In this document: positions 5,373-23,446 of the stretch, one piece after another
Numbering within the stretch: position 1 is the stretch's first letter
How the letters are laid out: each line of letters begins with the position of its first letter
NCBI GenBank assembly: GCA_944392425.1
Contig: CALXWM010000017.1
Location: forward strand, 1-32,330
Source: an uncultured Clostridia bacterium
GTDB taxonomy: Bacteria; Bacillota; Clostridia; TANB77; CAG-508
DNA length: 32,330 bases
Reading direction: 5' to 3'
Position numbers and translations under genes: made by a program
The notes under the pieces: model-generated
The model's database searches: none
Told to the model about the DNA's origin: nothing
Seen by the model: only the letters and a program-made list of their open reading frames with translations

Positions 5373-5446
5373 AGTATACTGATGAAACACTTAAAATTTA
5401 ATTGCTATAATTATTATACTTTTTTACCTTATATTGTCAATAGTTT

Positions 5447-6880
5447 CTACAATATATTTTTCAATACTATTGTTTTCATTCTGCTCATTTCTTGAAGAGT
5501 TGTAAGAACACCCTCATTTCCTATACCACTATGTTTCCATCCACCAAATGGCATTTCGAATGAACGATAGAAGCTTGCTCCATTTACTACTGCTCCACCA
5601 CATTCAAGTTTATTTGCTATTTTTACTCCTCTTGAATAGTCTTTTGTTACTACACATCCACATAGGCCATAAGAAGATTGGTTAGCAATTTCAATTGCTT
5701 CTTCTTCAGTGTCAAATCCTATAACTGGGATTACTGGTCCAAAGATTTCCATATCTTTTGCTACGTCCATGTCTTTTGTAACATTATCTAATATTGTTGG
5801 ATAGTAGTATGCTCCTTCTCTCTTACCTCCACATACTAAAGTAGCTCCTTGTTCAATTGTTTTATTTACAAATTGTTCTACTCTTTCTGCTGCAGGAACA
5901 TTTATAAGTGGTCCCATATCTGTATCCATTTTTGATGGGTCTCCAACTTTTAAGTTAGATATAACTTCTTTCATTCTATCTATAAATTCTTGTTTTCTAG
6001 AATTATGTATTAAGAATCTCTTTGATGCACAACACACTTGTCCACCATTATATAATCTTCCCCAGATAGTTTCCTTAACTGCTAAATCCATATCTCCATC
6101 TTCTAAGAATATGAATGCGTCATTTCCACCTAATTCAAGCATTACATGTGTTAGGTTTTTAGAACATGTTCCCATTGTTTGAATTCCGGCTCCTGTACTT
6201 CCTGTTAGTGAAACTAAATGAACTCCTGGATGTCCTGCTAGTTCTTGCCCTACTGTTGGTCCATCTCCTGTAAGTAATTGTATTGTACCTGCTGGTACAC
6301 CTGCTTCAATCATTAATTTTACATATTCTGTAAGTGTAAGTGGATTATAGTTTGATGGTTTTACTATTATACTATTTCCCATAAGTAGTGCAGGTGGTAC
6401 TTTTTGACAGAATAAGTCACTTGGGAAGTTGAATGGCAATATTGCTGCAACTACACCTATTGGTTGTCTAACAGTTATTTGCATTGTTTTTTCTTGGCCT
6501 GCTTCTTGTCCTGCTGGTATTGATTCATTATATAAATGTTTTGCTCTTTCAACAAATGCAGTAGCACCAATTCTTACATTTGCTATTTCTGCGATAGCTT
6601 CTTTTATTGGTTTTCCAGTTTCTGCTGATAATAATTTTGCTAATTTGTCTTTATCTCTTTCTACTAAATCAATAAATTTGTATATTTTGTCTGCTCTTTC
6701 ATGAAGTGGAACTTCCGCCCATTTCTTTTGTTCTATTTCAGCTACTCTTACAGCTTCATTTACATCTTCTTGTGTACAGTTTGGAACTGTATCTATAAGT
6801 TCTCCAGTTGCTGGATTAGTTACTTCAATAACCTTTCCTTCTGATGCATCTCTCCATTCATAACCTATTAAATTCTTCAT
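5447..6880 (-). CDS. NAD(P)-dependent aldehyde dehydrogenase
   Basis: A 477-residue ALDH-superfamily enzyme that oxidises an aldehyde to an acid with NAD(P)+. It has the oxyanion asparagine N151 in PFNFP, the cofactor lysine in IVKPS, the GSTGAG cofactor loop (227-232), the general base E249 in LELGG and the nucleophile C283 in NGGQVC. The tail MPFGGWKHSGIGNEG is typical of succinate-semialdehyde or lactaldehyde-type members. Substrate cannot be fixed from sequence; a GapN-type or succinate-semialdehyde role are both possible. Full length and intact. AGGAAAG lies upstream of the start. The FIST-domain gene precedes it on the same strand with a 117-bp gap, so co-transcription from the FIST promoter is plausible. 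Confidence 0.9.
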   Translation of the reverse strand: MKNLIGYEWRDASEGKVIEVTNPATGELIDTVPNCTQEDVNEAVRVAEIEQKKWAEVPLHERADKIYKFIDLVERDKDKLAKLLSAETGKPIKEAIAEIANVRIGATAFVERAKHLYNESIPAGQEAGQEKTMQITVRQPIGVVAAILPFNFPSDLFCQKVPPALLMGNSIIVKPSNYNPLTLTEYVKLMIEAGVPAGTIQLLTGDGPTVGQELAGHPGVHLVSLTGSTGAGIQTMGTCSKNLTHVMLELGGNDAFIFLEDGDMDLAVKETIWGRLYNGGQVCCASKRFLIHNSRKQEFIDRMKEVISNLKVGDPSKMDTDMGPLINVPAAERVEQFVNKTIEQGATLVCGGKREGAYYYPTILDNVTKDMDVAKDMEIFGPVIPVIGFDTEEEAIEIANQSSYGLCGCVVTKDYSRGVKIANKLECGGAVVNGASFYRSFEMPFGGWKHSGIGNEGVLTTLQEMSRMKTIVLKNIL

Positions 6881-14427: not shown

Positions 14428-16110
14428 ATGAAGTTTATTAAAAAAGTAAAAGAATTTTTTAATGTACTTACTCAAAATGCGGAAAGCTATGATTTTAGTA
14501 TATCTAAAGAAAATTCTAGTGAATCACAACCTGAAGATTTATTAAAAAATCAAAGTATTTATCCAAGCCTTGATGTAAATTTAGAATACATTAAGTCCAG
14601 ATATAATGTTTTGATTAATTCTGATATAAAAATAAGAGAATTTATGCTAAACGCCAAAGGTAAGCAATTTAAAGCTTTTATCATATATATAGATGGTTTG
14701 GTTGATACAACTTCTATAAATGATTTTATATTAAATCCTCTTATGATTAAAAATTTTTCTAATCAGAATACTGAGCCTCAGATTATATCTGAAGCTATTA
14801 CTACAAATATAAGTGTTAGGAAAATTAAAAGATTTAATATTACAGATTATATATATGAATGTTTATTACCTCAAAATAGTGTTAAAAAGATTTCATCTTT
14901 TGATGAGATTGTACAAAATGTAAATTCAGGAAATTGTGCTTTATTTGTCGATACAATTAATTTTGCTTTTGATATAGATATAAAGAAGTTTGCACAAAGG
15001 AGTATTTCTGAGCCTAAAAATGAGCCCAGTGTAAGAGGTTCACAAGAGGCTTTTGTTGAAAATCTCAGAACTAATACTTCTATGATTAGAAGAAATATCA
15101 ATAATGAAAATTTGATTATTGAAAATATTACAATTGGAAAAACAAATAAAAATAATTGTGCAGTTTGTTACATTAAAGATATTGCAAATTCTAGCTTAGT
15201 TTCCGAAACAAAATATAGATTAAATAACCTTGATGTTGATTATGTTCTTTCTAGTAGTGAACTTATTCAACTTATTAAGGATGACCCTGAAACAACTCTT
15301 CCTGAAATCCTTACAACAGAAAGGGCTGATAAGGCATGTTCAAGCCTTCTTCAAGGTAGGGTTATTCTTATTTATAATGGTTCTCCATATGCTTTAATAC
15401 TTCCAGTGACTCTTTTTGATTTTATTACATCACAAGAAGATATGAACCTGAATTATCACTTTGCAAATTTATTAAAGATTATTAGAGGAATTGCTTTTTT
15501 TATAACATTACTTTTACCTGGACTTTATTTAGCAATAACAATTTATCATAGAGAACTTTTACCAACTGAATTACTTTATTCAATTGTGGCATCGCGTGTA
15601 AACGTTCCTTTCCCAATTCTGGTGGAAATTCTTATTATGGAACTTTCTTTTGAATTAATAAGAGAAGCCGGTCTAAGGGTTCCTTCTCCTCTTGGTTCAA
15701 CAGTTGGTATTGTTGGTGCTTTGGTTTTGGGCGAAGCTGCTGTTTCAGCAAATATTGTTTCTCCAATATTGATAATTATAGTTGCAATTACAGCAATTTC
15801 ATCATTTGCAATACCAGACTTTTCACTAGGTTTTCATTTAAGAATTTCAAGATTTGCTTATACGCTTCTAGGCTCTTTATGTGGTTTTTTAGGAATTGGT
15901 GTTGGAATATTTATACACTTAATTACACTATGCTCTTTAAAATCTTTTGGCGTACCTTACCTTTCTCCATATATGCCTAAGACAAATATTAGAAATAATG
16001 GTTATTTATTGAAACCTGTATGGAAAAGAGAAAAAAGGTCTGACTTTTTAAATACCAAAAGAACTACTGTTCAAGATAAAACAAGTATGAAATGGAGAGA
16101 AAGGAGTTAA
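14428..16110 (+). CDS. Spore germination protein, GerA family (A subunit)
   Basis: A 560-residue A subunit of a germinant receptor in the spore inner membrane. The N-terminal half (about 1-340) is hydrophilic with the family's SSFDEIVQNVNSGNCALFVD and PKNEPSVRGSQEAFVENL stretches. The C-terminal part holds four to five membrane segments starting at about residue 350, with LPTELLYSIVASRVNVPFP and REAGLRVPSPLGSTVGIVG. These are hallmarks of GerAA/GerKA-type proteins, some of which form oligomeric channels. The ATG is preceded by GTGAGG. It starts a three-gene operon; the B subunit begins 6 bases after its stop. Sigma-G control is expected from the family, but no clear promoter was read. Which germinant it senses cannot be inferred. 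Confidence 0.95.
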   Translation: MKFIKKVKEFFNVLTQNAESYDFSISKENSSESQPEDLLKNQSIYPSLDVNLEYIKSRYNVLINSDIKIREFMLNAKGKQFKAFIIYIDGLVDTTSINDFILNPLMIKNFSNQNTEPQIISEAITTNISVRKIKRFNITDYIYECLLPQNSVKKISSFDEIVQNVNSGNCALFVDTINFAFDIDIKKFAQRSISEPKNEPSVRGSQEAFVENLRTNTSMIRRNINNENLIIENITIGKTNKNNCAVCYIKDIANSSLVSETKYRLNNLDVDYVLSSSELIQLIKDDPETTLPEILTTERADKACSSLLQGRVILIYNGSPYALILPVTLFDFITSQEDMNLNYHFANLLKIIRGIAFFITLLLPGLYLAITIYHRELLPTELLYSIVASRVNVPFPILVEILIMELSFELIREAGLRVPSPLGSTVGIVGALVLGEAAVSANIVSPILIIIVAITAISSFAIPDFSLGFHLRISRFAYTLLGSLCGFLGIGVGIFIHLITLCSLKSFGVPYLSPYMPKTNIRNNGYLLKPVWKREKRSDFLNTKRTTVQDKTSMKWRERS

Positions 16111-16116
16111 TATTTT

Positions 16117-17220
16117 ATGAACAATAACAGAATTGGTTTTGTAGAGTCAATATCTCTTACTTTAATTGTTATTATAAGTCATATTTTGCTCAACCTTCCT
16201 AATGAAATATTGGGTTCTACTGCGTCTAGTGGACCTTTAAATGTTATTTACATTACAATTCTTGCTGTAATTTTATTTTTAGTTTTTAACAAACTCTTTT
16301 CTCCTTTTCAAGGTAAAGATATTTTAGATGTTGCAGAATTTGTTGGTGGTAATATTCTAAAAAAAGTAGTTTCAATTATTTACACATTATATTTCATTTT
16401 TGTTTGTGGAATACTTCTGCTAAACTTTGCCAATACATTAAAAACTGTTTATTTACAAGACATGCCTACTTCGCTCATTTGCTTAGCATTTATACTAATT
16501 GCACTTATTGCTAATCAATTTGGTTTTAAAAATGTAAGTAGAGTAAATGCTATTATATTACCATTTATAGTTGTAGCTATTTTAATAATATTTTTTGCTT
16601 TATCAGTACGTTTTGTACCTGAAAGATTCTTCCCCGTTCTAGGATATGGTGTAAATAACACTTTTATTTTAGGTGCTACAAATGTATTTGCATTTGGTGA
16701 AATTATACTTTTGCTTTTGATGAGATCAAGTTATAAAGATCCTAAGGATGTTAAAAGAAATGGATTAACATCTGTAATATTATCTGGCATAATACTTTTT
16801 TTAAGTGTTACATCTCTTATTTTAATATTTCCTTTTGCAACTGGTGGAGAAGGAATACTTTCTATATATATGATAACTAGAAGTATTCAATTCGGAACAT
16901 TTTTTCAAAGAGTCGATGCATTTTTTATACTAATATGGGTATTAACATTTTTCTCATATTTATCAGTAGTTTTTGCTTTTATTTTAAGAATTACTAACAA
17001 AAATTTAAGAATGCAAAAATCAAATATTCCTACATTTATAATTGGACTAGGAGTTTTTATAGTTACATTAATACCTCAAAATATTGCACAAATTCGATTT
17101 GCAGAAAATGTTATTTATAAATATGCATGTTTAATTATTGTATTTGGAATGAGTTTTGTTATCTTACTTTTGGGATATTTAAAGAAGAATAAAAAAGGAA
17201 TGGTATTAATTCGCAATTAA
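16117..17220 (+). CDS. Spore germination protein, GerB family (B subunit)
   Basis: A 367-residue integral membrane protein of the spore germination B-subunit family (amino acid permease-like fold), with about ten hydrophobic segments. It opens RIGFVESISLTLIVIISHIL and ends in a short basic tail. Recognisable family stretches include LDVAEFVGGNILKKVVS and GEIILLLLMR. Relatives bind the germinant amino acid or nutrient. AAAGGAG lies upstream of the ATG, and the gap to the A subunit is 6 bases, so the two are translationally close. The C subunit follows after 55 bases. Length is normal and the gene intact. Confidence 0.93.
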   Translation: MNNNRIGFVESISLTLIVIISHILLNLPNEILGSTASSGPLNVIYITILAVILFLVFNKLFSPFQGKDILDVAEFVGGNILKKVVSIIYTLYFIFVCGILLLNFANTLKTVYLQDMPTSLICLAFILIALIANQFGFKNVSRVNAIILPFIVVAILIIFFALSVRFVPERFFPVLGYGVNNTFILGATNVFAFGEIILLLLMRSSYKDPKDVKRNGLTSVILSGIILFLSVTSLILIFPFATGGEGILSIYMITRSIQFGTFFQRVDAFFILIWVLTFFSYLSVVFAFILRITNKNLRMQKSNIPTFIIGLGVFIVTLIPQNIAQIRFAENVIYKYACLIIVFGMSFVILLLGYLKKNKKGMVLIRN

Positions 17221-17275
17221 ATACAAAATAACTATTTGCAAGTTAAAGCAATAATTTTTTGAAAGGAGTACTTTA

Positions 17276-18568
17276 ATGGAAGCAAAAAAAATATTGATAT
17301 TTATGCTTATAATAGTTTTAATATCAATAACATTATTCGGAATGAATTCTGTAACATCTATGGATAATTTAGCATATGTAGTTGCAGTTGGTTTTGATAT
17401 TAAAGATACTGGAAAATTAGAACTCAGCTTTCAAATTGCTCTTCCATCTGGAACTGAAGGAGGTGCCTCTGGATCTAGCTCTTCTCAATCTTCGAGTTCG
17501 ATTGTAACTAGTGTTGAATGTAATTCTTTTGAATCTGGAATTAATTTGGTTAATTCATATTTAAGCAAAGAATTAAATTTATCACATTGTAAAGCAGTAG
17601 TATTTTCAGAAGAAATAGCCTCACAAGGAATTGGTGAATATTTATATACTTTAATTAATCATATTGAAATAAGACCAACTTGTAATGTAATAATTTCAAA
17701 ATGCAATGCTAAATACTTTTTGAACAACTCTAGCCCGATGTTAGACCAACTATCTTCAAAATATTATGAAATAGCTTCTACATCTGAAAGAGTTACTGGA
17801 TACACTTATAATATAACTTTACTAGACTTTTTCTCAGATTTTGCAGATTCATTCACTGAAAGTTTTGCTACTCTTGGAAGTGTTAACGATGGTAATATCT
17901 CTAGTAGTGGGGCAAATAACAATTCTAGCTATAGTTCTAGTAACGGAAGTAATAGTGATCAATCTAGCTCAAGTTTATCTAGTGAGGGAACTGATGATAG
18001 TTATGTTGCTTCTGAAACTCCTATAGATTCACAAAAAAATATTGAAAACTTGGGACTAGCTGTTTTTAAAGGAGATAAATTAGTGGGAGAACTAAACGGA
18101 GTTGAATGTATTGCTCATTTAATTTTAGCTAATGAATTAGAAAATGCTGTAATAAGTGTACCAAGCCCTTTTGAAAGTACAAATTATATTGATTTATATC
18201 TTACAAATAGCAAATGTAAGACTAAAGTATATTTGACAAATGGTACACCTTATATAAAACCTAACATAAACTTGAGTGCCAGAATAATTAGTATGGCAGA
18301 TGATTACAAAAATTTGACAGAAGAAAACATTGAATTAATTGAAGAATATGCTAAATACTATGTAGAAAGATTTATTTATGATTATTTATATAAAACCGCT
18401 AAAGTATTTAAGTCGGATATTACAGCCTTTGGTAAATATGCTGTTTCAAATTTTGCTACTATTGATGAATGGAATGAGTATAACTGGTTAGATAATTATC
18501 AAAATTCTTTCTTTAATGTGGATATAAATGTGGATATTGTTTCTAGGTATTTGTTGATTGACACTTGA
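17276..18568 (+). CDS. Spore germination protein, Ger(x)C family (C subunit), lipobox cysteine missing
   Basis: A 430-residue C subunit of the germinant receptor. Family members are lipoproteins with a conserved GCWD-type start to the mature chain. Here the N-terminal hydrophobic helix (about 5-22) is followed by LFGMNSVTSMDNLAYVVAVG, so methionine 23 stands where the lipidated cysteine belongs. The rest fits the family: AYVVAVGFDIKD, the LSKELNLSHCKAVVFSEEIA block, the EIRPTCNVIISK strand and a C-terminal domain. Two Ser/Asn/Gly-rich low-complexity inserts (about 62-80 and 205-250) are unusual. AAAGGAG lies upstream of the ATG. It is the last gene of the operon, with a terminator-like hairpin at 18619-18655. 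The protein is probably anchored by an uncleaved helix. Confidence 0.88.
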   Translation: MEAKKILIFMLIIVLISITLFGMNSVTSMDNLAYVVAVGFDIKDTGKLELSFQIALPSGTEGGASGSSSSQSSSSIVTSVECNSFESGINLVNSYLSKELNLSHCKAVVFSEEIASQGIGEYLYTLINHIEIRPTCNVIISKCNAKYFLNNSSPMLDQLSSKYYEIASTSERVTGYTYNITLLDFFSDFADSFTESFATLGSVNDGNISSSGANNNSSYSSSNGSNSDQSSSSLSSEGTDDSYVASETPIDSQKNIENLGLAVFKGDKLVGELNGVECIAHLILANELENAVISVPSPFESTNYIDLYLTNSKCKTKVYLTNGTPYIKPNINLSARIISMADDYKNLTEENIELIEEYAKYYVERFIYDYLYKTAKVFKSDITAFGKYAVSNFATIDEWNEYNWLDNYQNSFFNVDINVDIVSRYLLIDT

Positions 18569-18579
18569 TAAGTTTGTGC

Positions 18580-18612
18580 ATTTTACTTTGAGGACGGACC
18601 TTTTCGTAAAAT
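18580..18612. repeat. Palindromic intergenic repeat, single unit after gerC
   Basis: A 33-bp unit with ATTTTAC and GTAAAAT ends and the core GAGGACGGACC, starting 11 bases past the gerC stop codon. It is a member of the nine-unit family. Confidence 0.8.
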
Positions 18613-18618
18613 ATTTAC

Positions 18619-18655
18619 TTTTGTGACGAAGTAAAACTTAAAATATGTCACAAAA
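18619..18655 (+). terminator. Probable terminator of the ger operon
   Basis: TTTTGTGAC (18619-18627) pairs with GTCACAAAA (18647-18655) around a 19-base loop, followed after five bases by a run of six T (18661-18666). It would end the gerA-gerB-gerC transcript. Confidence 0.55.
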
Positions 18656-18695: not shown

Positions 18696-18724
18696 TTGAC
18701 AAAAATAATTTTTATGTATATAAT
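18696..18724 (+). promoter_or_regulatory. Perfect consensus sigma-A promoter of the small RNA
   Basis: TTGACA (18696-18701) and TATAAT (18719-18724) are exactly 17 bp apart, matching the consensus at all twelve positions. No protein gene follows on this strand; the next gene, rnr, faces the other way. Confidence 0.85.
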
Positions 18725-18730
18725 AGATGT

Positions 18731-18825
18731 AGAAAATGGAGAAACCACAAACGTGGTTGCCTCAAGATTTGAATTGTAAAAACACATCTCAAACTTGGCA
18801 ATGTTTTACAGATGTGTTTTTCTTT
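18731..18825 (+). ncRNA. Candidate standalone small RNA (about 95 nt)
   Basis: Starting about 7 bases after the perfect -10 box, the transcript holds a hairpin AACCAC-AAAC-GTGGTT (18743-18758). It ends in an 11-bp terminator stem (18779-18789 with 18810-18820) and a T-run. The terminator loop contains CAAACTTGGC, complementary (with two small bulges) to GCCTCAAGATTTG just upstream (18759-18771). This permits either a pseudoknot or a competing hairpin that would break the terminator. No open frame with a ribosome binding site is present. It does not match tmRNA, 6S, SRP RNA, RNase P or a riboswitch class I can recall. With no downstream gene on its strand, a free-standing RNA is the best reading; expression is inferred. 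Confidence 0.6.
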
Positions 18826-18875
18826 ATTTTTTTCTACTAATTAATATTCTTTTTTCTGCTTATTCTCATTTTCTA

Positions 18876-18912
18876 CGATATATAGTATATCGCAATTTCG
18901 TTATTTTGTCTA
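18876..18912 (-). promoter_or_regulatory. Possible antisense promoter with palindromic operator
   Basis: On the minus strand TAGACA (18907-18912) and TATACT (18884-18889) are 17 bp apart. The -10 lies inside the palindrome CGATATA-TAG-TATATCG (18876-18892). It would send a transcript of about 100 bases into the 3' part of the small RNA, ending at the same hairpin read in reverse. It could be fortuitous. Confidence 0.4.
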
Positions 18913-18940: not shown

Positions 18941-20911
18941 TTACGGCTCTAATTTAAAATCTATCTTTCTCGTTTGCTTATCTGCAAACACCACTTCAAT
19001 TTTTACTTTTTGTCCAAGTTTGTATACTTTTTTAGTTTCTTTGCCTATTAGTTGTTTATTCATGTCATCATAAATGTAATAATCATCATTTATTTCTGCA
19101 AGTCTTATTAAACCTTCAACTGTATTATTAAGCTGTACAAACATTCCCCAACTTGTTATACTTGAAATAATACCATCATATTGCTCGCCAATTTTATCTT
19201 GCATGTATTCAGCCTTTTTTATATCTTCACTTGCTCTTTCTGCTTTTGTAGCATTTTGCTCACATTCAGAAGAACTCTCAGCATATTTTATTGCTTGCTT
19301 TTCTAGTTTTGCCTTTGTGTTTTCATCAATTATATCATTTACTGCCTTATTATTCTTAACATTTTTGCCTTTATTAGATTCTGTACTCATATACTCTAAG
19401 TATTTAGATATAACCCTATGTATAAACAAATCAGGATATCTACGAATTGGTGATGTAAAGTGGCAGTAATACTTACTTGAAATACCAAAGTGTCCTTTAT
19501 TTTCCGCTTCATATCTTGCAACCTTTAAAGTTCTTAAAAGCAAATTAGAAACTACCCTTTCTTCATCTTTTCCTTTTACATCTTCTAATATTTGTGAAAA
19601 TGATTTTGGCTTCACATCATCCAATTTTCCTTTTATTCTATATCCAAAGTTAAACAAATATTTATTTAATTCTTTTACTTTATCACTATCTGGCTTTTCA
19701 TGAACTCTATAAATAAATGGCGCTTCTAACCAATAAAATCTTTCTGCTACTGTTTCATTGGCTGTTAGCATAAATTGCTCAATTATTTCATGTGCAAAGT
19801 TTGTTTCATAGGCCATAATATCTATTGGCTTTCCATTTTTGTCTAAAGTTATTTTGCTTTCTGGTATATCTAAAGATAAATACCCATCTTTTAGTCTTCT
19901 TTCTTTTAAAATTAATGCTAATTCTTTCATTTTATCAAAATGCTGAATATATGGTTCATATTTTGATAATATCTTTTCATCACTTCTTTCGATTATTTTA
20001 TATACATCATTGTAATTCATTCTTTTAGTTACTTTAATAATGCTTTTGAAAATATCATTATCTATAACTTTTCCTTTTGAATCTATTTTCATTATAACTG
20101 AAATGGCATATCTATCTTTGCCTTCGTTTAAGCTACAACATCCATTTGATAATTCAGTTGGAAGCATTGGAATAACTCTATCTAGCATATACACACTTGT
20201 TCCTCTTTTTATTGCTTCTTTATTAAGCAAGCTTCCGTCTTGAACATAGTAGCTTACATCAGCAATATGCACTCCAAGTGTATATGTTCCATCTTCGTTT
20301 TTATTTACACAAACAGCATCATCTAGGTCTTTTGCATCTTCGCCATCAATTGTAAAAATTTCTTTATCTCTTAGATCTACTCTACCATTTGGGACAATTT
20401 CTTTTTTGCTTACTCTTTTAGCTTCTTCTAAAACTTTTTTAGGAAATTCGCTTTCTAAATTATATTCTTTTATAATTGAAAGCATGTCCACACCCGTTTC
20501 ATCTTCATATCCTAAAACTTCGAAAATTTTTCCTTCTGCTTTCATTCCTTTTCTAGGATATTTAGTAATTTTCACTACAACTTTTTGATGATTTTTTGCT
20601 TTTCCAAAATTAGATTTTGATATAAAAATATCTGTTCCAAGTGTATTGTCATCTGGAATAACAAATCCAAAATTCCTACTTTTTTCAAAGGTTCCTACTA
20701 CTTGTCTAGTATTTCTCTCAACGACTTGAACAATGGCACCTTCCCTACTGTTGCCACTATTTTCGTCTATTATTTTAACTTCAACTATATCTCCATTCAT
20801 AGCATCTTTTTTATTGCTTTTAGCTATGAAAATATCTGGCTCATCATCTGATGTTTTTACAAATCCAAAGCCTCGTTCATGACCAATAAATTTTCCTTGA
20901 ATTAAGTCCAT
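18941..20911 (-). CDS. rnr: Ribonuclease R
   Basis: A 656-residue processive 3'-5' exoribonuclease that degrades structured RNA and takes part in rRNA and tmRNA quality control. N-terminal cold-shock-like OB domains (about 1-150; QGKFIGHERGFGFV, RNFGFVIPDD) precede the RNB catalytic domain (about 165-500), with the acidic cluster FTIDGEDAKDLDDAV and the signature FTSPIRRYPDLFIHR. An S1 domain (about 575-650; YDGIISSITSWGMFVQL) closes the protein. The lysine-rich tail of some homologues is lacking. The ATG at 20911 is chosen over an upstream TTG because GGAGG sits 6 bases before it. secG lies upstream, the usual Firmicute pairing. The smpB and ssrA genes that often follow are not here. Confidence 0.95.
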   Translation of the reverse strand: MDLIQGKFIGHERGFGFVKTSDDEPDIFIAKSNKKDAMNGDIVEVKIIDENSGNSREGAIVQVVERNTRQVVGTFEKSRNFGFVIPDDNTLGTDIFISKSNFGKAKNHQKVVVKITKYPRKGMKAEGKIFEVLGYEDETGVDMLSIIKEYNLESEFPKKVLEEAKRVSKKEIVPNGRVDLRDKEIFTIDGEDAKDLDDAVCVNKNEDGTYTLGVHIADVSYYVQDGSLLNKEAIKRGTSVYMLDRVIPMLPTELSNGCCSLNEGKDRYAISVIMKIDSKGKVIDNDIFKSIIKVTKRMNYNDVYKIIERSDEKILSKYEPYIQHFDKMKELALILKERRLKDGYLSLDIPESKITLDKNGKPIDIMAYETNFAHEIIEQFMLTANETVAERFYWLEAPFIYRVHEKPDSDKVKELNKYLFNFGYRIKGKLDDVKPKSFSQILEDVKGKDEERVVSNLLLRTLKVARYEAENKGHFGISSKYYCHFTSPIRRYPDLFIHRVISKYLEYMSTESNKGKNVKNNKAVNDIIDENTKAKLEKQAIKYAESSSECEQNATKAERASEDIKKAEYMQDKIGEQYDGIISSITSWGMFVQLNNTVEGLIRLAEINDDYYIYDDMNKQLIGKETKKVYKLGQKVKIEVVFADKQTRKIDFKLEP

Positions 20912-20953
20912 TTTATCCTCCAAATAATTTCAAATAACACATAACTGATTGAA

Positions 20954-21420: not shown

Positions 21421-23370
21421 CTATTTCTCTTTATTATAATTCTCAATAATATCTCCAAGTGCATCTGAAAAATCTTGAAGCATTACTACTTTAATGTTAG
21501 GAGCTTTGCCAGAAATATAGTCATCAACAACTTGTTTTAATTTATACATATTATTAAGTTCTGGCAAAAGTATTTTTGCATTTTTGTTTGCTCTATCTGC
21601 AAGTTTTTCTTTTATTGTCACTATATCTTCATTACTTGCACAAGATATTCTTTGGAATATTTGATAAGGATCACTATATTTAAATATAGGTATATCCATA
21701 CATTCTTTGTCAAATAAGTCATAAAATTTTTCCATTTTCATCGGTATATTTTTAAATATAGTATCAGCTTTAATTCTATACATTTTATCTTTTAATTGAT
21801 TATTTAAATCTCTAAATCTATTTAATATTTCTTGCATTTCCGGCATATTTTCATCAAACGACATTTGTTTTATTTCTTCTTCTGCGTCCTCACAATATTC
21901 TGATGTAATTGATGATACATTCATGCCATTTAAAAATACACTGTTTATTGTTTGCATATCATAATCAACTAAACCTTTTTTTACAAAATACACAAAATAT
22001 GTGTATATCTTTATTAAATCTATAAGTTGTATTTCACCTTTTTTTACAGATTCTAGTACTTCAGAAATAACATTTGGAAATTGGTCATCTGATATTTTCC
22101 AATATTCTTCTGTAAGAAGTCTTTTGTAACCTGGTAATTTATCTGTATCAACTGTATTTATTATATCTTCCATGTCTTTTTTAAAAGTTTTCATGTCAAA
22201 TATTCTAGTTCTTACATATATTTCAATAAATTTGAAAAATCTATATTCTGTTTTAAAATTGTAGTAATAGTTATTATCAAATTCTTTTATATAGAATTGT
22301 CTATTATCCATGAAAACTCTTGAAGATACTACTAATGACTTATATTCTTCATTATCATTAATATTTACAAATTTATCTTTTGTAACTTTTCCTGCTTTAA
22401 TTTCAAAAGATACAGCTATTGTAAATATTAACATTGTTTGAAGAATTCTATTATTTGTATTTGGGTATGATTTATTAACCATATCCAATACCTTTTTGAA
22501 GTCATTTAAAGCGTGTTTTAAAATTCTTAAGTTCCTAGTACCACTTTTAATAAATGTTGAAACTATTAAATTTGTATTTTCTCTTAAAAATCTTATTAAA
22601 TCTCTATTGTTTTCATATCTTATTAGCAATCCATTAATAATATATGTAAACTCAGGTGCATATTCAAATGTTTCACCTATAAGTTTTTCTTTTATTCTTT
22701 CATAATCGTTTGCTTTGTCAAATACATTTTCAATAGTATCTTCTATTTTTTCAACCATTGGTTTATCTGTTGTAAGAAGTTTGTCTTCTTTGTCCAACAA
22801 ATATGTAGCAATAAATGTTTTCATTTCCAAATTGCTACTTTTTAATTTAGTAGAAAGTTCTTTTTCGTTGCAAATTATTATTGTTTTTATGTGGTCATGC
22901 TCCACGAAATTATTTATGTAACCCAATATATCTATAACGTCTACGTTAGCTCTCTCTAGGTCATCAAAGCATAGTACTTTGTCATCTGTTGAGAAAAAGT
23001 TTTCATAATCTATTTTATCTCCATTTTGAGTTACTCCAAAAAAGTTAGCCATATCTAGACCAGTTTTTGCATATTCTGGAATTATTGTTTGTCCATTGCT
23101 ATTCATATATCTTTTTAAATTTTTATCCATTAACTGTGTTGTTTCTATGAATATTTTTTTGCTTATTTCTTCTAGGTTTGATATACCATATAAAGACATA
23201 TAAATGGTTGTTAATTTTTTACCATTTACAGTCATATTTTCTATTCTATTTCTTATTTTGTGATTCCAAAAGTAGGTTTTACCACTTCCCCACTCACCAT
23301 TTATCATAATGGCATAGTCTGTGTAATCCGACCTTATGTAATCTAATATGCTTTCTACTAAATCATCCAT
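21421..23370 (-). CDS. KAP-like P-loop NTPase, possible defence protein
   Basis: A 649-residue protein with Walker A GEWGSGKT (25-32), only 24 residues from the N-terminus, and Walker B VLCFDDLER (132-140). The Walker A GEWGSGKT and DDLER/DDLDR Walker B resemble KAP-family NTPases. A sensor-1-like IIICNEKEL follows near 164-172. The remaining 450 residues look helical, carry no recognised domain and show no membrane segments, although many KAP proteins have a membrane insert. The ATG at 23370 is chosen over a TTG seven codons upstream because AAAGGA fits it. It lies between housekeeping genes (secG, comF) with no partner gene. KAP NTPases are accessory and some act against phage; a defence role here is inference only. 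Confidence 0.7.
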   Translation of the reverse strand: MDDLVESILDYIRSDYTDYAIMINGEWGSGKTYFWNHKIRNRIENMTVNGKKLTTIYMSLYGISNLEEISKKIFIETTQLMDKNLKRYMNSNGQTIIPEYAKTGLDMANFFGVTQNGDKIDYENFFSTDDKVLCFDDLERANVDVIDILGYINNFVEHDHIKTIIICNEKELSTKLKSSNLEMKTFIATYLLDKEDKLLTTDKPMVEKIEDTIENVFDKANDYERIKEKLIGETFEYAPEFTYIINGLLIRYENNRDLIRFLRENTNLIVSTFIKSGTRNLRILKHALNDFKKVLDMVNKSYPNTNNRILQTMLIFTIAVSFEIKAGKVTKDKFVNINDNEEYKSLVVSSRVFMDNRQFYIKEFDNNYYYNFKTEYRFFKFIEIYVRTRIFDMKTFKKDMEDIINTVDTDKLPGYKRLLTEEYWKISDDQFPNVISEVLESVKKGEIQLIDLIKIYTYFVYFVKKGLVDYDMQTINSVFLNGMNVSSITSEYCEDAEEEIKQMSFDENMPEMQEILNRFRDLNNQLKDKMYRIKADTIFKNIPMKMEKFYDLFDKECMDIPIFKYSDPYQIFQRISCASNEDIVTIKEKLADRANKNAKILLPELNNMYKLKQVVDDYISGKAPNIKVVMLQDFSDALGDIIENYNKEK

Positions 23371-23446
23371 TGTAATTTTCCTTTCTTTCAAATCTTATGT
23401 TTTTACATTATTTTTAACTTTCAAACTTTATAATTATATAAAGCTT

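Follow-up and report, generated by a model that had tools for sequence, protein, structure and literature searches.

The small RNA encoded at 18731-18825 (+) is very probably the antitoxin of a chromosomal type I toxin-antitoxin (TA) module with the layout of par(pAD1), whose toxin ORF has been deleted. It is carried by contig C17 of an uncultured Clostridia genome (G000, 1.54 Mb), which constitutes the window, i.e. the whole stretch of 32,330 nucleotides analysed here. From the sequences of its relatives, we file the family as a new one within the type I TA systems. No earlier description was found in the searchable, mostly open literature, a scope that excludes T1TAdb and leaves priority unproven. 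The layout, the complementarity of the two RNAs, the coding nature of the toxin, the co-variation of both partners and the deletion at this site can all be read in the sequences compared below.

The antitoxin gene is preceded by a sigma-A-type promoter (TTGACA-N17-TATAAT, 18696-18724, +) that matches the consensus at 12 of 12 positions, as the earlier note on this DNA had claimed. Two such 12/12 promoters are present in the 32-kb window versus 0.09 expected from dinucleotide shuffles of both strands. The other one (5413-5440, -) has a 16-nt spacing and is located just downstream of the end of an ORF at 5447-6880 (-). Among 112 homologues, the antitoxin promoter matches at least 10 of the 12 positions in 109 and all 12 in 42. 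The transcript would be about 95 nt long, its 5' end being placed from the promoter. Its predicted fold (-25.3 kcal/mol, z -3.06) is more stable than that of all 200 shuffled sequences, and the covariance model R1 matches 18729-18822 in the window with 74.3 bits. The fold and the homologues bear out the claim of a conserved, terminator-ended small RNA of Clostridia. Starting from the 5' end, the segment 18738-18749 (+) carries GGAGAAACCACA, which is complementary to the toxin leader UGUGGUUUgcCUCC of intact relatives and changes in step with the leader of its partner toxin; within it, AAACCACA is the antitoxin-side copy of a direct repeat. It overlaps hairpin H1 (18743-18758, +), supported by covariation, with a CCAC-aaac-GUGG core at 18745-18756 and A-U ends. 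The RNA ends with a bidirectional terminator common to both genes (18778-18821, both strands), identified from the fold and from covariation and directly followed by a T-rich sequence. Its stem is one base pair longer than the 11 bp first proposed (12 bp, 18778-18789/18810-18821). As the terminator scan was limited to loops of 8, this terminator, with its 20-nt loop (18790-18809), was absent from it.

The search of Rfam 15 that had been recommended gave no match for the antitoxin RNA at gathering score, in agreement with the statement that no known class was recognised. The RNA is however not an unclassified sRNA, since most of its relatives carry a small hydrophobic toxin gene on the opposite strand, just beyond the terminator. 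At a relaxed threshold, RefA9 was retrieved from Rfam with an E value of 0.25, below gathering and on the other strand, and was rejected. ARAGORN identified neither a tmRNA nor a tRNA. As described previously, no gene lies downstream on the same strand: gerAC is located upstream and rnr is convergent. An attenuator or riboswitch was rejected on this ground, and we agree that attenuation is unlikely.

The covariation alignment, which was fitted to the model, covers 82 distinct relatives, some of them divergent and with clearly dissimilar terminator stems. Changes on both sides were observed in 11 of the 12 pairs, and 96.6% of the cells are paired versus 77% in shuffles. The covariation sought for the 18743-18758 hairpin proved strong, as did that of the terminator: 98.5% of cells are paired in H1, with compensatory changes in 3 of 4 pairs, and 95.7% in the terminator, with compensatory changes in 8 of 8 modelled pairs. 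Since the alignment is model-fitted and the collection was selected for H1, the terminator helix constitutes the stronger evidence.

The complementarity proposed between the terminator loop and the segment upstream is present, with its two bulges, and is two pairs longer than claimed. It links UUGCC-AAG-UUUG (18757-18771, +), the possible 5' strand of a pseudoknot, with CAAA-CUU-GGCAA (18790-18801), its possible 3' strand. The pseudoknot itself is possible and receives modest support from the family, while in the window alone the pairing remains within chance (p 0.16-0.22, dinucleotide shuffles). Native segment-loop pairs are better than loop swaps across the family (z -4.4; -2.1 for class A and -3.4 for class B), although these scores are uncorrected for kinship and inflated by relatedness; the covariation expected for this pairing is thus seen, but weakly. 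In class A, a competing fold is predicted in which H1 is extended by pairing between a 5' GGAG and CCUC or UCUCC of this segment. Moreover, to form in full, the 12-bp pseudoknot would require a linker of 8 nt to bridge 12 bp, and it is likely that only part of it could form beside the terminator. The segment 18757-18771 also resembles, in the sense orientation, the toxin leader together with the toxin terminator loop.

In most homologues, a short ORF on the opposite strand ends just beyond the terminator (e.g. MIETEFLISIIYILFYALIGITIIALTSIITLLILLRKSK and MFMVKVILFFIISFMLSLTLNVALTAVLYKNWVDKQLHK). In intact relatives this ORF is preceded by an SD, is convergent with the antitoxin and encodes a hydrophobic peptide of 35-45 aa. 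A loose test identified an adjoining convergent hydrophobic ORF in 96 of 124 homologues. With strict criteria (SD and hydropathy of at least 2.3), it was found at 78 of the 112 loci with enough flank versus 0.8% of 2000 random positions from the same contigs. According to these criteria, 17-30% of loci show no toxin; some of these are truncated at contig ends, and in some the toxin seems genuinely lost. Of the single-base codon differences between 35 distinct class B ORFs, 46% are synonymous versus 21% expected, a substitution pattern indicating that the toxin ORFs evolve as protein. No Pfam or NCBIfam model matched 19 representative toxin peptides, and searches of PHROGs, PADLOC and PDB matched the peptides to no known toxin family. 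At the family level, a small hydrophobic toxin gene is hence found together with a complementary small RNA gene, the ORF of the window being deleted.

The two partners co-vary. One of two leader motifs, UGUGGUUUGCC or UGUGGUUUUGCC, sits upstream of the toxin SD; the former accompanies antitoxins with GAGAAACCACA and the latter antitoxins with ACAAWCCACA. The antitoxins bear AAACCACA or CAAAWCCACA, and the repeat type follows the leader type across loci. At one class A toxin locus with a B-type leader, the antitoxin is also B-type. In 75 of 82 loci, the 5' part of the antitoxin pairs better with its own leader than with shuffled ones. The toxin SD is inside a predicted hairpin (CCUCC-aacaa-GGAGG, also GCCACC...GGUGGU). 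Because the terminator is common to both RNAs, their loops are fully complementary, and YUUG, which as a sequence motif only has the YUNR U-turn form, is present in 75 of 85 toxin loops.

In the window, the antitoxin gene follows the gerA-type spore germination genes (14428-18568, +), the last of which is gerAC (17276-18568, +), and converges with rnr (18941-20923, -), beyond which lies secG. A KAP-family P-loop NTPase gene (21421-23391, -) is located between secG and a phosphoribosyltransferase-like gene. The toxin promoter (TAGACA-17-TATACT, 10/12, 18884-18912, -) and the start of the toxin leader (GTAGAAAATGAGAATAAGCAG, 18856-18876, -) are retained and are identical at 60 of 62 positions to those of G012, a genome with a 96% identical rnr in which the gerAC-rnr junction carries a complete toxin and antitoxin pair. 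Compared with the layout of the relatives, about 34 nt between the leader and the terminator (18822-18855, -) form a deletion scar from which the SD, toxin ORF and stop of intact relatives are missing. On this sequence comparison, the window has lost the toxin gene but kept the antitoxin and the start signals of the toxin. The description of the RNA as an orphan is therefore true of the window, but only through the deletion of the toxin ORF. In G008 (rnr 95% identical) the antitoxin alone is present, abutting rnr, and the deletion differs from that of the window. No module was found at the gerAC-rnr junction of G028 (95%) or of the more distant G016, G023 and G020.

Other elements occupy this site. 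The junction of G028 (locus L172) is filled by inverted and direct repeats of GGGGACGGTCCTAAATCGAAAA, and a related-looking GAGGACGGACC element, perhaps a small non-autonomous mobile element, is found at 18585-18650 of the window between gerAC and the sRNA. The junction in contig C14 of G027 (locus L173) carries a different convergent sRNA/peptide pair. Its opposite-strand ORF MTQPDLIQKLIEQLLAEREKNIILQLRLEEAKKGKD has a GGGGGT SD, and the direct repeat GATCTGGTTGTG occurs in the sRNA and beside the start codon of the peptide. The pair has the appearance of a second par-like module, unrelated to the family described here, whose peptide is not hydrophobic.

When 56 relatives were searched at the DNA level, clear full-length homologues were retrieved, with two to four in some genomes. 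A pattern scan of named GTDB genomes, using a pattern that contains H1, gathered at least 116 stretches, nearly all from MAGs and many from animal gut. The titles of the listed stretches refer to uncultured Clostridia, Clostridium or Eubacteriales, with one from Bacilli. The covariance model, built from 65 of the listed stretches, detected the RNA at E values of at most 0.001 in 264 of the 385 genomes and 38 of the 48 genera of the order, with up to eight copies per genome. In a class-wide sample of 291 genomes, there was one match outside the order, in G569, a member of another order of the class. This distant locus (L212) has both genes: the antitoxin is GACCGCAAACGGTTATGCC, the toxin leader GGGCGGTTATGCC and the peptide, of 22 aa, MDNEYILSFMMILLLLVISIKK. 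Together with two further weak model matches, it suggests a superfamily reaching beyond the order. Tandem TA copies a few hundred bases to 2 kb apart were observed at L038 (4467-5650), L116 (420-2280) and L241 (530-1073), and at L119 a class A-like antitoxin adjoins a class B toxin. Such tandem and mixed-class copies suggest frequent recombination at the shared terminator. A DNA pattern search of viral contigs found no family member, and one toxin query each against plasmids and phages gave no match; a phage, plasmid or viral origin was rejected on the basis of these searches.

The par locus of pAD1 consists of convergent promoters, a short antitoxin RNA, a shared bidirectional terminator and a small hydrophobic peptide (PMC7472228). 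There, a YUNR U-turn in the toxin loop starts pairing, direct repeats provide the toxin leader with a further region of complementarity, and a 5' hairpin contains the SD (PMC7472228). The family resembles this system (RNA I-Fst/RNA II) and its chromosomal homologues in its convergent promoters and shared bidirectional terminator and, as far as sequence can indicate, in its leader-complementary direct repeat, predicted SD hairpin and YUNR motif in the toxin loop. However, where par(pAD1) has DRa/DRb over the initiation site, the family has a single repeat, AAACCACA or CAAAWCCACA, and this lies upstream of the SD. Its antitoxin also differs from the RNA II of about 40 nt: it is about 90 nt long, has a 5' hairpin of its own and includes the target sequence in sense orientation (GUGGUUUGCC). 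Since no model matches the 19 representative peptides, by toxin sequence the family belongs to neither Fst/Ldr nor TxpA/BsrG (RatA/SR4). The fst-Sm/srSm locus of Streptococcus mutans is chromosomal and intergenic, with a convergent toxin mRNA of about 200 nt, an antitoxin of about 70 nt and direct repeats (PMC3543317). It resembles the family in layout but has an Fst-like toxin and a single described locus versus several per genome. CD2517.1-RCd8, CD2907.1-RCd9 and CD0977.1-RCd11 of Clostridioides difficile are multicopy modules with convergent overlapping genes and small hydrophobic toxins (PMC6563280), properties that the family shares, as it does their occurrence in Clostridia. The C. difficile toxins are 34-59 aa long and many are prophage-borne; the family is set apart from them by description rather than by residue comparison. 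Type III TA systems (ToxIN, CptIN, TenpIN), in which a repeat-array pseudoknot RNA precedes the gene of a ToxN-like endoribonuclease, were rejected: the RNA is single-copy, its neighbours are gerAC and rnr, and its partner is a small peptide.

A likely mechanism can be proposed for intact relatives. In these, two short genes converge on one bidirectional terminator and would yield an antitoxin RNA of about 90 nt and an mRNA of about 230 nt that would encode the membrane-type peptide of 35-45 aa. As in par(pAD1), from which we infer the order of pairing, the translation block and the toxicity, first contact would occur between the complementary terminator loops, with YUUG in the toxin loop. The antitoxin 5' segment (GGAG)AAACCACA would next pair with UGUGGUUU(gc)CUCC just ahead of the SD of the toxin mRNA, and this leader pairing would block translation of the toxin. 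Having lost its partner in cis, the window antitoxin might be a decaying relic or might still act on the related toxin mRNA of another contig, C32. This contig of the same genome carries a class A copy that is intact; two others, which are more divergent, are located on C10 and C46.

There is an even chance that the RNA is a pure relic, an antitoxin left without a target and drifting after loss of the toxin. The toxin ORF is absent here and, by a different deletion, in G008, and toxin-less antitoxins are found elsewhere in the family; on the other hand, all antitoxin elements, including a 12/12 promoter, are intact at both toxin-less loci. Alternatively, and as a refinement of the same identification, the RNA may tentatively be considered to have been kept as a guard in trans that would silence the C32 toxin mRNA, i.e. 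an RNA anti-addiction module or backup antitoxin. Its promoter, hairpin and terminator are all intact, and among 107 other family terminators the best partner of the window terminator is that of C32. With the C32 toxin mRNA, the window RNA is predicted to form a duplex of -54.7 kcal/mol; the cognate antitoxin of C32 reaches -67.0 and the C10/C46 antitoxin -29.1. In pairing with the C32 leader, the 5' segment of the window RNA equals that of the cognate (-20.5 and -19.5, respectively). The substitution of RCd12 for RCd11 in C. difficile despite three mismatches (PMC6563280) is also in favour of such an activity. However, the deletion tail and the terminator are themselves closest to C32, which descent explains as well as selection; type I antitoxins are mostly specific to their own toxin, and if the toxin was lost recently, the RNA would still be intact even in the absence of selection.

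An elaboration of this proposal, which we consider rather unlikely, combines the guard function of a toxin-less copy with self-masking. The middle segment GUGGUUUGCC, which corresponds to toxin leader sequence, would pair internally with the 5' CCAC and the terminator-loop GGCAA, and the antitoxin so masked by a copy of its target would be opened by strand exchange with the toxin mRNA. It is very improbable that the RNA is an independent sRNA acting in trans, or a terminator/antiterminator switch as considered in the earlier note. The RNA does possess a promoter of its own, and its loop is complementary to the segment upstream, but this complementarity is within chance in the window alone, the same strand is empty downstream, and a toxin partner exists in most relatives and at the same site in G012. 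Finally, a short peptide encoded from the ATG at 18736 can practically be dismissed: although the frame is open over 34 codons in the window, it has no SD and is not conserved, since insertions and deletions in relatives move its stop to anywhere between 9 and 39 codons.

The RNA of the window, as the antitoxin of a module that has lost its toxin, belongs to a TA family that is carried by roughly two of every three genomes in an order of gut bacteria and is missing from Rfam, Pfam and NCBIfam. The covariance model and the peptide set make this family searchable. The series of intact, toxin-deleted and empty states at one site offers a direct test of the activity of orphan RNA antitoxins in trans. 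The same series bears on why such modules persist in small, largely uncultured genomes.
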